From contig NZ_CP063196.1 of NCBI RefSeq assembly GCF_003574835.2, positions 3,534,001 to 3,598,000 of the forward strand: DNA of 64,000 nt, read 5' to 3'. Below are positions 6,037 to 39,743 of this stretch, one piece after another. Below the pieces are notes generated by a model. That model did not search any database. It was not told where the DNA came from and saw only the letters and a program-made list of their open reading frames with translations. The stretch is from Thermobifida halotolerans. GTDB taxonomy: Bacteria > Actinomycetota > Actinomycetes > Streptosporangiales > Streptosporangiaceae. The position numbers were made by a program, and so were the translations under genes. Within the stretch, counting starts at the first letter, position 1. Every line of letters begins with the position of its first letter.

Positions 6037-7323
6037 ATGCTGCGCCGATTGGCAATCACAGTGCTCGCCGCGACGGCCACCGTCGTCGTGGCCGCCGCGC
6101 CCGCGAGCGCGGAACCCAGTGCGGACGAGGTAGCCGACGCGCTGAACAGCTCCAACGTCTACGTCGACCCCGACGCGACCGACGTCTCCCCCAGTGACGC
6201 GGACCTCATGAGCCAGGCCGCGGAGAACGTCGACACACCCGTCTACTTCGTTGTGGTCCCCGAGGGGGAGTTCTCCTCGCAGGCCGAACTCGGCTCGTTC
6301 ATGGCCGACGTGCAGCAGGATGTCGGCGACGGCTCCTACCTGGTCTTCGTCGGCGACACCACCGCGGCCGACTCCACCGTGCTCTCCCCCTCCGACGTGG
6401 CGGCGGCCGAGCAGGCCGCCCAGCGCATGAGCACCGTGCCCGACGCGGCCGTCGCCTTCGCCAACGAGGCCGAGTCCCAGGCCGACTCCGCGGCGGCCTC
6501 CGGAGTGTTCGGCATGGTCCTGCTGGGCCTGCTCGTCGCCGCGGTCCTCGGCGGCGGCTTCTTCCTCTACCGCTCGAAGAAGCAGCGCGAGGCCAGGGAG
6601 GCCCGGGAGCTGGAGGAGGTCAAGAAGGCGGTCAACGAGGACGTCGTCCGGCTCGGCGAGGACATCGCGCGTCTGGACCTCGACCTGGGCAAGGCCGACG
6701 AGGCCACCCGCACCGACTACACACACGCGATGGACTCCTACGACCGGGCCAAGACCGAACTGGAGACCATCCGGCGGGCCGACCAGATCCAGCGGGTCAC
6801 CAACGCGCTGGAGGACGGCCGCTACCACATGATCGCGACCCGTGCGCGGCTGGCGGGCGACCCGGTGCCGGAGCGCCGCGCCCCCTGCTTCTTCAACCCG
6901 CAGCACGGTCCGTCCGTCCGGGACGTCGACTGGGCTCCTCCGGGCGGTTCGGTCCGGTCGGTCCCGGTCTGCCGCATGTGTGCCAGTGACGTCCTGTCCG
7001 GTGCCCACCCCGACGTGCGCATGGTCGAGACCGGCGGACGCCGGGTGCCCTACTACGACGCCGGTCCCGCCTACGCCCCCTACGCGGGCGGCTACTTCGG
7101 CATGGACATGATGATGGGCATGTTCACCGGCATGATGATCGGCAACATGATGGGCTCGATGATGGGCGCCGGAATGATGGGTGCCGGAATGGCGGGCGAC
7201 TACGGCGGCGACGCGGGCGGCGGTGACGGCTTCGGCGGCTTCGGAGGCGACGGAGGCGGCTTCGGCGACTTCGGCGGCGGCGGGTTCGACGGAGGCGACT
7301 TCGGCGGATTCGGCGACTTCTGA
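6037..7323 (+). CDS. Membrane protein with CFFxPxHG/CxxC module and Met-rich, Gly-rich tail
   Basis: 428 residues; ATG 6037 preceded by GAGAGGA. A signal peptide (residues 1-25, ending APASAE) leads to an extracytoplasmic domain with VYVDPDATDVS, VYFVVVPEG and SYLVFVGDT, reminiscent of TPM-type domains. One transmembrane helix follows at about 161-182 (GMVLLGLLVAAVLGGGFFLY), then a charged helical stretch to about 275. The C-terminal module has CFFNPQHG, CRMC and GRRVPYYD, as in the 1705-2615 gene. The tail carries 14 methionines within about 33 residues (MDMMMGMFTGMMIGNMMGSM), then a Gly/Phe/Asp-rich end. The module would lie on the cytoplasmic side if the signal peptide is cleaved or the N-terminus is outside. 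Metal binding by the CxxC or Met-rich part is inference. Substrate unknown. Confidence 0.85.
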   Translation: MLRRLAITVLAATATVVVAAAPASAEPSADEVADALNSSNVYVDPDATDVSPSDADLMSQAAENVDTPVYFVVVPEGEFSSQAELGSFMADVQQDVGDGSYLVFVGDTTAADSTVLSPSDVAAAEQAAQRMSTVPDAAVAFANEAESQADSAAASGVFGMVLLGLLVAAVLGGGFFLYRSKKQREAREARELEEVKKAVNEDVVRLGEDIARLDLDLGKADEATRTDYTHAMDSYDRAKTELETIRRADQIQRVTNALEDGRYHMIATRARLAGDPVPERRAPCFFNPQHGPSVRDVDWAPPGGSVRSVPVCRMCASDVLSGAHPDVRMVETGGRRVPYYDAGPAYAPYAGGYFGMDMMMGMFTGMMIGNMMGSMMGAGMMGAGMAGDYGGDAGGGDGFGGFGGDGGGFGDFGGGGFDGGDFGGFGDF

Positions 7324-29889: not shown

Positions 29890-29899
29890 CAACACTGTG

Positions 29900-30016
29900 T
29901 ACGGCGGCGACCTACTCTCCCACCCCACCAAAGAGGCAGTACCATCGGCGCTGGACGGCTTAACTACCGGGTTCGGAAAGGGACCGGGTGGACCCCGCCC
30001 GCTATGACCGCCGTAA
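29900..30016 (-). rRNA. rrf: 5S ribosomal RNA
   Basis: 117 nt beginning TTACGGCGGTCATAGCGGG and ending in the complementary CGCCGTA, so the terminal stem closes. Internal segments (GGTTAAGCCGTCCAGCGCCG) match actinobacterial 5S. Ends are estimated from stem pairing. Confidence 0.93.
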
Positions 30017-30103
30017 CCCTCACACCCACCCACACACCCAACAAAGGCATGCAAGCAGGAAACCTCAACATGAACAACGTGCGCGAGCACCCAGCATCTG
30101 CGG

Positions 30104-35092
<4,989 letters not shown>

Positions 35093-35260
35093 GGCCAAAC
35101 ACCACCCACACCCGCCAGGGCGCAGGCAGCAAACCTGAAACAGAGGCTCATCCCGACCAGACACCCAAACCAGGGTGCCGATCAAAGGAACCCCCACCCC
35201 CTCACAACCATGAGGAAGTGGCAGGAGCCAAAATCACAAACTCGGCTGTAAAAACAAACA

Positions 35261-35280
35261 CGCGCTGTTGAGTTCTCAAG
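35261..35280 (-). promoter_or_regulatory. rRNA leader element (processing/antitermination type)
   Basis: CTTGAGAACTCAACAGCGCG on the minus strand, about 170 bp before the 16S gene. The core TTGAGAACTCAA is the conserved leader motif seen ahead of actinobacterial rRNA genes. Confidence 0.7.
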
Positions 35281-35393
35281 AAACAACCGCCGACCGTCCA
35301 CAAGCCACCAGGCTCTTCCCCAGCCGCGGCATTCCCGCTACACCCCCCAGAAACCAACCGACTCGCGTCAGTCCTTGTTTCCGGGGTGTTTCC

Positions 35394-35604
35394 ACTCTAC
35401 CCCCTGCCCGAGACTCCTCGGACCACCCGGTTCGGAGTGGAACCAGAACCAGCCCGCCCGCGACCCTCGCCGCGTTCGTTCCGCTCAGTTCACTTCCCAG
35501 ACTACCCGCTCCGCAGAGTGCTCCGCACAACCACCGAACGGACCCTGGACACGCCACCTCACACCCGGGAAACCCCAGGCCATCGGCGACGCCGAAAGAC
35601 TCTA
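35394..35604 (-). promoter_or_regulatory. Candidate tandem rRNA promoters
   Basis: Three minus-strand -10-like hexamers of the TAG(A/T)(G/C)T type are spaced about 100 bp apart: TAGAGT (35599-35604), TAGTCT (35499-35504) and TAGAGT (35394-35399). Only the first has a passable -35 (TTCGCC, 18 bp upstream). Tandem promoters are normal ahead of actinobacterial rrn operons, but none of these is proven. Confidence 0.35.
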
Positions 35605-35631
35605 GCCGACCCCCGCCCATTTGGCGAACCA

Positions 35632-36425
35632 GGCCGGGCAAACCAGTACAACAGGCATCAGGCCCAGGCTATTCCCGGCCCCCTCCCGAAGGAGGTACCG
35701 CCTGCTGACGGCTCCGACTCGGTCCAACAGGATCAGGTCCGGGGTTATTCCCCGACCCCCTCCTACGGGAGGAGGAGCCACCTGCCGGCCGGTCCTACCC
35801 GCTACAACAGGCGCAGGCCCCGGATTGTTCCCGAACCCTCCCGCCTGTCCAGCGGACCGAACCAGTCCAACAGACGCCGGGGCCGGACTATTCCCGGCCC
35901 CCTCCCGAAGGAGAGACAGCCACCTGCTGACGGGTCCGACTCGGTCCAACAGGATCAGGTCCGGGGTTATTCCCCGACCCCCTCCTACGGGAGGAGGAGC
36001 CACCTGCCGGCCGGTCCTACCCGCTACAACAGGCGCAGGCCCCGGATTGTTCCCGAACCCTCCCGCCTGTCCAGCGGACCGAACCAGTCCAACAGACGCC
36101 GGGGCCGGACTATTCCCGGCCCCCTCCCGAAGGAGAGACAGCCACCTGCTGACGGGTCCGACTCGGTCCAACAGGATCAGGTCCGGGGTTATTCCCCGAC
36201 CCCCTCCTACGGGAGGAGGAGCCACCTGCCGGCCGGTCCTACCCGCTACAACAGGCGCAGGCCCCGGATTGTTCCCGAACCCTCCCGCCTGTCCAGCGGA
36301 CCGAACCAGTCCAACAGACGCCGGGGCCGGACTATTCCCGGCCCCCTCCCGAAGGAGAGACAGCCACCTGCTGACGGGTCCGAACCAGTCCAACAGACAC
36401 GGGTCCCGGTTTGTTCCCCCGCCGT
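35632..36425. repeat. Tandem array: three 222-bp units, each of three ~74-bp sub-units
   Basis: Units start at 35701, 35923 and 36145 with an exact 222-bp period; units 1 and 2 differ by one base that I can find. Each unit divides into three related sub-units of about 74 bp, and a partial sub-unit flanks the array on each side (from about 35632 and from 36367), giving about eleven in all. Every sub-unit has, on the minus strand, an (A/T)-loop hairpin such as GGGGCCGG-GAATAGT-CCGGCCCC, then TGTTGGACC or a close variant. Because 222 is divisible by three, long open frames run through it on both strands; they are by-products. It fills the space between pcrA and the rRNA operon. Confidence 0.92.
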
Positions 36426-36434
36426 GGCGGTCCC

Positions 36435-38711
36435 TCAGAGCTTCTCGATCGGCGCGAACCTGACCATGAGGTCCTTCTCGCCGATGTCCGCCCCGAAGTC
36501 GACGCGGACCTTGGTACGGTCCCCCGTCCCGTCGACCAGGAGTACCGTGCCCAGCCCGAACGAGTCGTGGTTCACCTTGTCCCCCGGGCGCAGTGACGGC
36601 ACCCGGCGCTCCGGCCTGCGGGTCGCCACCGAACCGCGCACGGGAGAGGCGGACCGTCCGAACGCGCCCATCGAGGACTCCGCACGGCGCCAGGTCACCA
36701 GCTCCGCGGGAATCTCGTCCAGGAAGCGCGACGCGGGGTTGTAGGCGGGCGCCCCCCAGGAGCTGCGCACCGCGGCCCGGCTGAGGTAGAGCCGCTCCTG
36801 CGCCCGGGTGATCCCCACGTAGGCCAGCCTCCGCTCCTCCTCCAGCGCCGACCGGTCGCCGAGCGTACGCAGGTGCGGGAAGACCCCGTCCTCCAGACCG
36901 GTGAGGAAGACCACGGGAAACTCCAGTCCCTTGGCCGAGTGCAGCGTCATGAGCGTGACCGCTCCCCCCTGCTCGTCGGCGTCGGGCACCTGGTCGGTGT
37001 CGGCGATGAGGGAGATCTGCTCCAGGAAGTCCACCAGCGTCGGCTCGGCGGCCTCCTCCGTGCCGGTCCCGTCCGCGTCGTCCGCCTCCTCGCCCGGCAC
37101 GCCGCCGAAGGACGCCTCGAACTCGCGGGCGACCCCGACGAACTCCTCCAGGTTCTCCACCCGGCTCTCGTCCTGGATGTCCTTGGAGTTGACGAGTTCG
37201 CTCAGGTAGCCGGTGCGTTCCAGGACCGCCTCGACCATCTCGGCCGGGCTGCTCGTGGGGACCAGCGCCTCCAGCTCCTCCAGCAGGGCGACGAACTCCC
37301 GGATCGCCTTGAGCGAACGGGTCGCGATCCCCGGCGCCTCGTCCGCGCGGCGCAGCGCCCTGGCGAAGGTGATCCGCTCCCGGGCGGCGAACAGCTCGAC
37401 CACCGCCTCCGCGCGGTCGCCGATGCCCCGCTTGGGCACGTTCAGGATCCGGCGCAGGCTCACCGTGTCCTCCGGGTTGGCGAGCACCCGCAGGTAGGCG
37501 AGGATGTCGCGGATCTCCCTCCGCTCGTAGAACCGCACTCCGCCGACGATCCGGTACGGCAGCCCGGTACGGACGAACACCTCCTCCAGCACCCGGGACT
37601 GGGCGTTGGTCCGGTAGAAGACCGCGACGTCACCGGGCGTGCAGGCGCCCTCGTCGGTGAGGGTGTCGATCTCGCCGACGACGAACGCCGCCTCGTCGTG
37701 CTCGTTGTCGGCGACGTAACCGACGATGGGCGGCCCCTCGCCCCTGGCCGACCACAGGTCCTTGGGGCGCCGCTCCGCGTTGCGCGCGATGACGGCGTTG
37801 GCCGCGGTCAGGATGTTCTGGCTGGACCGGTAGTTCTGCTCCAGCAGGATGGTCGTGGCCTGCGGGTAGTCGCGCTCGAACTCCAGGATGTTGCGGATCG
37901 TCGCCCCGCGGAAGGCGTAGATGGACTGGTCGGCGTCGCCCACCACGCACAGCTCCGGTCCCGGGAGCGCCGAGTCGGTTTCGGCGGGGCCCACGAGCGC
38001 GCGCACCAGTTCGTACTGGGCGTGGTTGGTGTCCTGGTACTCGTCCACGAGCAGGTGCCGGAACCGCCGCCGGTAGTACTCGGCGACCTCGGGGAACATC
38101 TGGAGCAGGTTGACGGTGACCATGATCAGGTCGTCGAAGTCCATCGCGCCCGCCTCGTACAGGCGCTGCTGGTAGAGCTTGTACGCCTCGGCGAGCGTCC
38201 GCTCCTGCTCGTTGGCCGCACGGTCGGCGAAGGTGTCGTAGTCCACCAGTTCGTTCTTGAGGTTCGACACCTGCGCGGAGAACGACTTGGGCGGGAAGCG
38301 CTTGGGGTCCAGGTCGAGTTCGCGGCAGACAAGCTGCATCAGCCGCCGGGAGTCGGCGGAGTCGTAGATGGTGAAGCTGCTCGGGTATCCCAGGCGTCCG
38401 GCCTCGCGGCGCAGGATGCGCACGCACGCCGAGTGGAAGGTCATGACCCACATGGCGCCTGCCACACGCTCACCCAGCAGTCCCTCGATCCGCTCCCTCA
38501 TCTCGGCCGCGGCCTTGTTGGTGAAGGTGATCGCGAGCACCTCGCCGGGGCGCACCCCCCGCTCGGCCAGCAGGTAGGCGACGCGGTGCGTGAGGACCCG
38601 GGTCTTGCCCGACCCCGCTCCCGCGACGATCAGCAGCGGGCCGCCCTCGTGGAGCACGGCGGCGCGCTGGGGCTCGTTGAGACCTTCGAGAAGCTGCTCT
38701 TGGGAGGACAC
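36435..38711 (-). CDS. pcrA: ATP-dependent DNA helicase PcrA/UvrD
   Basis: 758 residues from GTG 38711 (VSSQEQLLEGLNEPQRAAVL). Superfamily 1A motifs in order: Q-motif LNEPQ, Walker A IVAGAGSGKTRVL, ITFTNKAAAEM, Walker B LLVDEYQDTN, VVGDADQSIYAFRGA, LEQNYRSS, MTLHSAKGLEFPVVFL and YVGITRAQERLYL. The C-terminus has the RNA-polymerase-binding Tudor-like segment (RPGDKVNHDSFGLGTVLLVD to the end). It unwinds DNA 3'-5' in repair and replication. The start codon has only a weak ribosome binding site. Confidence 0.96.
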   Translation of the reverse strand: MSSQEQLLEGLNEPQRAAVLHEGGPLLIVAGAGSGKTRVLTHRVAYLLAERGVRPGEVLAITFTNKAAAEMRERIEGLLGERVAGAMWVMTFHSACVRILRREAGRLGYPSSFTIYDSADSRRLMQLVCRELDLDPKRFPPKSFSAQVSNLKNELVDYDTFADRAANEQERTLAEAYKLYQQRLYEAGAMDFDDLIMVTVNLLQMFPEVAEYYRRRFRHLLVDEYQDTNHAQYELVRALVGPAETDSALPGPELCVVGDADQSIYAFRGATIRNILEFERDYPQATTILLEQNYRSSQNILTAANAVIARNAERRPKDLWSARGEGPPIVGYVADNEHDEAAFVVGEIDTLTDEGACTPGDVAVFYRTNAQSRVLEEVFVRTGLPYRIVGGVRFYERREIRDILAYLRVLANPEDTVSLRRILNVPKRGIGDRAEAVVELFAARERITFARALRRADEAPGIATRSLKAIREFVALLEELEALVPTSSPAEMVEAVLERTGYLSELVNSKDIQDESRVENLEEFVGVAREFEASFGGVPGEEADDADGTGTEEAAEPTLVDFLEQISLIADTDQVPDADEQGGAVTLMTLHSAKGLEFPVVFLTGLEDGVFPHLRTLGDRSALEEERRLAYVGITRAQERLYLSRAAVRSSWGAPAYNPASRFLDEIPAELVTWRRAESSMGAFGRSASPVRGSVATRRPERRVPSLRPGDKVNHDSFGLGTVLLVDGTGDRTKVRVDFGADIGEKDLMVRFAPIEKL

Positions 38712-38813
38712 CCCACCAAGGGTAGACGTGGGCGGGGAGGTCGCGGGCCCTCGTGCGGCTACCCTTGGCCGGGTTCCGCGGGGAGCCCTGGGAATACGGT
38801 TGTGGAGGATCGG

Positions 38814-39743
38814 ATGCGTGTTTTCATCGACTGCGATCCCGGGATCGACGACGCGCTGGCGCTGGCCTACCTGGCGGCGGAGCCCGGCGTCGAGCTCGTC
38901 GGGGTGGGCACGGTCTACGGCAACGCCGCCGTGGAGACCACCACGGACAACGCGGTGCGGCTGCTGCGGCTGTACGAACGCCCGGAAGTTCCGGTCGCGG
39001 CGGGCGCGGCCCGCCCCCTGGTGCAGCAGCCCAGTCTGGCCGCGCACGTCCACGGCGCCAACGGTCTCGGCGGCATCGAGGTACCCGCGGTGGAGACGTC
39101 TCCGGTCTCCGAGTCCGCCGCCGAACTGCTGGTGCGGCTGGCCCGTTCCGCTCCCGGGGAGATCTGCGTCCTGGCGCTCGGCCCGCTGACCAACCTGGCG
39201 CTGGCGCTGGCCCTGGAGCCGCGGCTGCCGCAACTGGTGGACCGCGTGGTGGTCATGGGCGGCGCGGTGCGGGCGCCGGGCAACGTCACTCCGTGGGCGG
39301 AGGCCAACGTCAACAACGACCCGGAGGCGGCCGAGGCCGTGCTCGGCGCGGGGTTCGACCTGACCCTGGTCGCGCTGGACGTCACCATGCGCGCCCTGGC
39401 GACGGAGCCGTGGCTGGAGGAGTTGGCGGCGCTGGCGGGGGAACGCGCCGGGTACGCGCGCCGGTTCCTCGACTACTACGTGGACTGGTACACCTCGGTG
39501 CTGGGCCGGCGGGCGTGCGCGATGCACGACCCCCTCGCGGCGGCGGTGCTGCTCGACCCCGAACTGGTGACGGAGTCGGTGACCGTCCCGGTCCGGGTGG
39601 AACTGAGCGGCACCCACACCCGCGGCATGACCCTCGCGGACCTGCGGCCGAAACCGGAGGCGGGCTCCCGGGAACCGGTCGTCCTGCCCACCGAGGTGGA
39701 CGTCTCCGAGTTCCTCTCCCGCATGCTGCGGGCGCTGCGCTGA
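38814..39743 (+). CDS. Nucleoside hydrolase (IunH/RihA family)
   Basis: 309 residues from ATG 38814, with GGAGG 5 bases upstream. The N-terminal metal site is DCDPGIDDALAL (DxDxGxDD). VGVGTVYGNAAVETTTDNAV, VVVMGGAVRAPGNVTPWAEANVNNDPEAA and a late MHDPLAAAVLLDPEL (catalytic Asp/His) follow. It splits the N-glycosidic bond of nucleosides for base salvage. Divergent from pcrA and convergent with the response regulator (5-bp gap). Confidence 0.93.
   Translation: MRVFIDCDPGIDDALALAYLAAEPGVELVGVGTVYGNAAVETTTDNAVRLLRLYERPEVPVAAGAARPLVQQPSLAAHVHGANGLGGIEVPAVETSPVSESAAELLVRLARSAPGEICVLALGPLTNLALALALEPRLPQLVDRVVVMGGAVRAPGNVTPWAEANVNNDPEAAEAVLGAGFDLTLVALDVTMRALATEPWLEELAALAGERAGYARRFLDYYVDWYTSVLGRRACAMHDPLAAAVLLDPELVTESVTVPVRVELSGTHTRGMTLADLRPKPEAGSREPVVLPTEVDVSEFLSRMLRALR

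Follow-up and report, generated by a model that had tools for sequence, protein, structure and literature searches.

A tandem array of candidate SigR-type promoters facing an rRNA operon in Thermobifida halotolerans

The 1343-nt gap between pcrA and the 16S rRNA gene in the window (the whole 64-kb stretch of DNA analysed, from a 5.5 Mb genome in two contigs) carries, in its pcrA-proximal portion, a tandem array that reads on the rRNA strand as 11 copies of GGGAAY-N18-GTTG. The spacer is 18 nt in all 11 boxes, and every box faces the rRNA operon, which lies ~0.56–1.3 kb downstream. The array is probably a tandem promoter bank for a SigR-type (ECF, RsrA-controlled) sigma factor, which would feed rRNA transcription under stress. 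Among the roles listed in the initial annotation, stacked upstream promoters is the closest fit; the kind of promoter, an ECF promoter of SigR type present once per sub-unit and directed towards 16S, had gone unrecognised. The features concerned, all on the minus strand, are as follows:

36435–38900, minus: pcrA, the neighbour on the upstream side, 3′ end plus most of the gene (TIGR01073, 989.5 bits over 911.2)
35649–36418, minus: 11-box SigR-type array GGGAAY-N18-GTTG, pointing to 16S (box scan and alignment)
35713–36383, minus: 222-nt periodic tract, 3.02 copies, sub-units of 79/63/80 nt (TRF, self-comparison)
36391–36418, minus: box 1, most distant from 16S, GGGAAC-N18-GTTG
36312–36339, minus: box 2, GGGAAT-N18-GTTG
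36249–36276, minus: box 3, GGGAAC-N18-GTTG
36169–36196, minus: box 4, GGGAAT-N18-GTTG
36090–36117, minus: box 5, GGGAAT-N18-GTTG
36027–36054, minus: box 6, GGGAAC-N18-GTTG
35947–35974, minus: box 7, GGGAAT-N18-GTTG
35868–35895, minus: box 8, GGGAAT-N18-GTTG
35805–35832, minus: box 9, GGGAAC-N18-GTTG
35725–35752, minus: box 10, GGGAAT-N18-GTTG
35649–35676, minus: box 11, closest to 16S, GGGAAT-N18-GTTG
35604–35599, 35504–35499 and 35399–35394 (span 35394–35604), minus: three TAnnnT-like −10 elements, probable housekeeping rRNA promoters, also in the congener (by eye from the alignment; missed by the sigma-70 scan)
33558–35091, minus: 16S rRNA, which opens the operon and lies downstream of the array
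30102–33189, minus: 23S rRNA
29899–30015, minus: 5S rRNA

The 222-bp array is real. TRF gave a period of 222 with 3.4 copies and 96% matches over 35641–36396, and exact 222-nt periodicity was maintained over 671 nt. Neighbouring copies are identical at 222/222 and 221/222 positions, in agreement with the three near-identical units described previously and with the suggestion that a unit of diverged sub-units was recently amplified. Each unit does consist of three sub-units, but these are not ~74 bp each as first described; the box-to-box steps are 79, 63 and 80 nt (sum 222). Two more diverged units border the 222-nt tract, bringing the total to 11, and each sub-unit has one −35 element (GGGAAY, then A) and one −10 element (cTGTTG) with 18 bases between them. 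The array had also been said to fill the pcrA–rRNA gap, which holds for the pcrA-proximal part but not for the ~549 nt adjoining 16S (35092–35640), a leader/promoter sequence that can be aligned with that of a congener lacking the array. The closest named relatives of pcrA, among the matches listed and with nearer records possibly missing, were from Streptomonospora and Nocardiopsis at 70–73% identity.

Dinucleotide shuffling of the array region (n = 2000) gave a mean of 0.0085 boxes and a maximum of 1, compared with 11 in the real sequence. Outside the array, the window has one GGGAAY-N18-GTT on its plus strand and none on its minus strand. When spacer lengths from 14 to 23 were tried in both of the arrayed upstream regions of this genome, 18 was the sole spacer present. 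Conservation was then scored over 55 gap-free columns in an alignment of the 9 distinct units, each cut out between boxes. Invariant columns numbered 14, and all 11 published-consensus positions (GGGAA.A and TGTTG) were among them; the remaining columns had a mean pairwise identity of 57.7%, the lowest being 43%. The hypergeometric P for this coincidence is 3e-9, which is a guide only, as the units were box-anchored when cut and are related by descent. The element 'TGTTGGACC or variant', which the initial annotation saw as kept in the sub-units, corresponds to the invariant CTGTTG. From box to box the step ranges over 61–80 nt, but the −35/−10 spacer stays at 18. The combination of fixed spacer, varying steps and kept box positions looks like the pattern left by constraint on promoters, rather than on the repeat as such.

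All 11 boxes have the features of a SigR/SigH-type ECF promoter, a −35 GGAAT/C and a −10 GTT 18–19 nt apart. The words and their spacing are those of the SigR/RsrA regulon of Streptomyces coelicolor (SigH/RshA in Corynebacterium and Mycobacterium), for which the accessible texts give GGAAT-N18-19-GTT in S. coelicolor (PMC9205884), gGGAAta and t/cGTTgaa for SigH of C. glutamicum (PMC10012870), and GGAAT and GTTG as promoter words (PMC5005934). The same sigma/anti-sigma pair is present in this genome: sigR scores 348.5 bits with SigH_actino (TIGR02947) over a cut-off of 251.55, and rsrA is next in line (TIGR03988, 106.6 over 62.5). Its sigR has GGAAT-N18-GTT upstream, as do RsrA-linked sigR genes in 8/9 readable loci, a count that includes this genome and leaves out two further loci that could not be anchored; the one copy without it is in G330. 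The difference from the known regulon lies in arrangement, this genome having 11 and 8 boxes in tandem before rRNA operons. To our knowledge, known SigR/SigH promoters are single and located at protein genes.

Genome-wide, GGGAAYN18GTTG was found 47 times, against 4 for a reversed control, and 18 of the 47 lie in the two rRNA arrays. All 29 non-array matches were inspected. One strict box lies 61 nt before trxB (TIGR01292, 413.4 bits) and another 114 nt before dnaK (TIGR02350, 906.4 bits), while seven further strict boxes lie 28–228 nt before genes with mfd-type domains, SOR/SNZ (pdxS-type), YajC, FxsA, TPR, DUF1707/DUF4870 and UPF0182. Many of the matches that do not precede such genes sit in or near unrelated frames, and a good part of the non-array matches are therefore probably due to chance. 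In C. glutamicum the SigH regulon includes trxB (PMC3489674); the dnaK-grpE operon belongs to it according to earlier work cited there, though it fell below threshold in that paper's own study, as far as its accessible text goes.

Two genes of this genome exceed the TIGR02947 cut-off. The second SigR-like gene (L106, G000:C1:4778667-4779203) has no adjoining RsrA by eye, and among loci of its type a box was present in 1/10, with a spacer of 19. The idea that the cognate factor is a SigR paralogue found in this genome alone was rejected, all 9 of 9 relatives having two or three genes above the cut-off. The GGAAC boxes could serve another ECF factor, there being this second SigR-like gene, and in the accessible text on C. 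glutamicum GGAAC is used by both SigH and SigE (PMC10012870).

The four rRNA operons of the genome share an identical 16S sequence over its first 892 nt. A sister array, likewise at a distance of 550 nt, lies at the operon behind tyrS (TIGR00234, 380.8 bits) and contains 8 boxes with GTT, a spacer of 18 in 8/8 and GTTG in 7 of them. The other two operons have a different promoter region, with no box in their 1500-nt upstream regions. Between the two arrayed loci there is no difference in the 822 nt upstream of 16S or in the first 1544 nt counted from the 16S start; past that point the operon at the tyrS locus (L152) differs. From the same start onwards the window operon instead matches both unarrayed operons perfectly as far as they were compared (3152 and 2587 nt). 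This fits a conversion tract that may have spanned array, leader and 16S between the arrayed loci, since they match upstream and in 16S while the window operon matches the unarrayed ones downstream. Four far-end boxes of the tyrS locus have no positional match at the pcrA locus, and the 222-nt amplification belongs to the pcrA locus.

A comparison with other rrn loci and with relatives, which had been proposed as a check, thus gave a divided answer, with an array at a second locus (2/4 operons) and none in the relatives that could be tested. In the congener G318, pcrA is followed by rRNA as here, but the gap is 580 nt long and contains no array. Its part nearest 16S aligns with the one in this genome, the three TAnnnT-like elements included (by eye). 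Behind the gene that in this genome lies upstream of the tyrS-locus operon, G318 has the other promoter type (by eye). The pcrA–16S gap is 515 nt in G037 and ~0.63 kb in Streptomonospora nanhaiensis, again with no array. Most simply, the array would be an insertion that took place after the split from G318, because G318, G037 and S. nanhaiensis are all without it. More widely, 17 rRNA upstream regions of relatives were fetched, 13 of which were at least 2 kb (three from G318, six from G134, two from G037, and one each from G199 and G330, the last three genomes having more rRNA operons than those inspected). The other 4 (G319, G320, G085 and G061) stop 125–277 nt before the 16S cut-off point and were not counted. 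No tandem boxes were found in the 13 regions of at least 2 kb; the only N18 boxes there were two in one G037 region, inside pcrA by eye, and a lone N19 box was seen at −371 of one G134 operon. Of 80 pcrA loci, none had two strict boxes on one strand; within this set only the S. nanhaiensis locus has 16S in reach. The arrays are thus not conserved outside this genome in the sample, which stands against the SigR reading.

Tandem boxes are also rare in general. Two strict boxes in tandem occur in 5/341 family genomes, this genome included, and no 16S start turned up in the flanks fetched for the other four (at most 1500 nt; one contig-limited). G070 and G294 have two boxes each, again with no 16S start in the fetched flanks. 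Three relaxed boxes in tandem occur in 2/394 class genomes and 4/341 family genomes, with this genome in both counts. In G525 (L218) such a trio precedes a secreted-looking C39-like peptidase gene. The other three family genomes (G229, G262 and G266; L250, L156 1501-1840 and L157) are species of genus g56, each with a six-box GGAAT-N18-GTT array. Like the rRNA array, these consist of tandem boxes of the same pattern in one orientation with divergence between boxes, the steps being 62–68 nt. They differ in lying upstream of a CHAP-domain gene and not rRNA, in having GTTC more often than GTTG, and in having G, not A, after GGAAT. The downstream gene was looked at in two of the three genomes, G262, where the array lies ~0.33 kb before a CHAP-domain gene, and G229, where a similar frame lies ~0.4 kb downstream (by eye). 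Between G229 and G262 the inter-box sequence has diverged, while all six boxes and their spacers are kept. The g56 arrays support the view that tandem ECF-type promoter arrays may be a functional design, and show that such arrays are not confined to rRNA.

Bacterial rRNA synthesis is usually viewed as the output of the housekeeping sigma factor, lowered under stress. In S. coelicolor, HrdB was bound at all six rRNA gene sets (PMC6344877). We propose that SigR feeds rRNA transcription in this genome because stress input at rRNA has precedents, namely sigma-32 at E. coli rrnB P1 and HspR at S. coelicolor rrnD, with partial stimulation of S. lividans rRNA by heat (PMC2687793), and because translation-inhibiting antibiotics induce SigR, among whose targets are ribosome-associated functions (PMC4921905). 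The sigma-32 and HspR cases resemble the array in placing stress regulators at rRNA operons, but involve another sigma class or a repressor, and a repeat array is not described in the accessible text of PMC2687793. Mycobacterium kumamotonense rrnA and rrnB have promoters in series before 16S, one operon likewise behind tyrS, but these are two promoters or one, with no ECF-type box repeat in the accessible text (PMC10218544). A literature search of top-ranked titles and abstract openings, mostly without subscription papers, found no report of an ECF-promoter array at rRNA. In eukaryotic rDNA, spacer promoters and enhancers are repeated upstream of the rRNA genes; these are like the array in being repeated promoter copies, but serve another polymerase and are unrelated, so that the likeness is an analogy only.

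In the proposed mechanism, thiol-oxidative, heat or translation stress would free SigR from RsrA, and SigR holoenzyme would start transcription at many points along the array. These transcripts would cross the leader and the housekeeping promoters and continue into 16S-23S-5S, with the result that rRNA synthesis would be maintained or restored from two of the four operons. The array itself may have been amplified in 222-bp steps and passed between operons by gene conversion. That SigR starts at the boxes, that its transcripts reach 16S, and that there is a physiological purpose or gain are all points that we infer from sequence. More tentatively, the array might act as a stress rheostat tunable by copy number, in which SigR cassettes are added in 222-bp steps and spread by gene conversion, two of four operons are stress-specialised, and the same tandem ECF architecture arose separately at the g56 CHAP-domain gene; we hold this wider picture to be possible, not probable. 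Stacked ECF-sigma promoters of this sort would wire the oxidative-stress sensor RsrA directly to ribosome production, and the unit number of the array would be an evolvable dial. The array would then offer a direct test case for whether rRNA operons can be stress-specialised, and for what tandem promoter copies do compared with one.

Other accounts of the boxes can be weighed against a SigR promoter bank. A chance SigR-like promoter might have been duplicated via slippage or recombination without effect. The exact 222-nt copies are recent and the array is missing from the tested relatives, as such neutral amplification would have it, but the flanks of the older units are down to about 58% identity with box positions unchanged in 11/11, and box-keeping arrays recur in another genus (g56); we regard this account as unlikely. 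Alternatively, the arrays could hold SigR holoenzyme and thereby dampen, or set the timing of, the remaining SigR regulon, with rRNA output secondary, a role suited to the share of strict sites that they contain (18/47). A titration sink needs neither orientation nor rRNA, however, and the boxes are predicted to be complete promoters that face 16S at 2/2 arrayed loci. RNA polymerase also vacates a promoter once transcription starts, and thus a polymerase that begins transcription departs from the site, which makes a sink rather improbable.

Since the array lies upstream of, and is aimed through, the three putative housekeeping −10 elements, transcription by SigR through the leader might also occlude the housekeeping rRNA promoters and lower or re-time rRNA under stress. 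The interfering transcript would, however, be pre-rRNA itself unless terminated, and there is no terminator-like site between array and leader; such interference seems very unlikely. The only terminator-like site in 35092–36440 lies in the leader (35221–35194), with 1.5 expected by chance over the stretch scanned, and none lies inside the array. The earlier suggestion of a transcription insulator accordingly found no support, there being no stem-loop with a T-run in the array. Decoys, also among the roles suggested earlier, are conceivable. A hairpin with an A/T loop had been ascribed to every sub-unit. The inverted repeat of the array is in fact centred on the −35 element, and the nine box windows gave fold z values of −1.52, −2.38, −2.40, −0.86, −2.03, −2.08, −0.44, 0.18 and 0.80, compared with −0.21 for an inter-box control, so that 4/9 fold more stably than shuffles, with z below −2, and 5/9 do not. 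The hairpin is at most a secondary feature. These four windows, together with an invariant C at +9 and G at +12 of the spacer, are what could be cited for the inverted repeat being the functional part, as a repressor site, cruciform or leader hairpin. That idea leaves the invariant TGTTG and the constant spacer unexplained, as well as the five windows that do not exceed shuffles, and we give it very little credence.

Several further candidates for the array were tried and rejected. Tandem rRNA promoters for the housekeeping sigma-70 were not borne out, a weak match to TTGACA/TAnnnT being present in only one of the three sub-unit types; the scan found TGGACA-N16-AACAAT once per 222-nt copy, 3 against 0.1 expected, but this is one repeated site. 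Three frames are open throughout the array, but 0/3 products had a Pfam match and the 79/63/80-nt steps shift the frame, which speaks against a protein-coding array. A search of Rfam with 35092–36440 gave no match, even with E allowed up to 1. A dispersed repeat family was rejected, as a search of this genome for the repeat gave 26 matches, 24 of which, apart from the two rrn arrays, were short and weak (best 35 nt, E 0.001). Other repeats were seen in passing: a 259-nt direct duplication containing GGGAATGATGCGAGTAGCCACCCTGTTG twice at L143 (G000:C1:4267277-4269500), in a stretch without a clear gene, and, within the window at 7102–7320, a cluster of short overlapping tandem repeats with periods of 12–39 (TRF).
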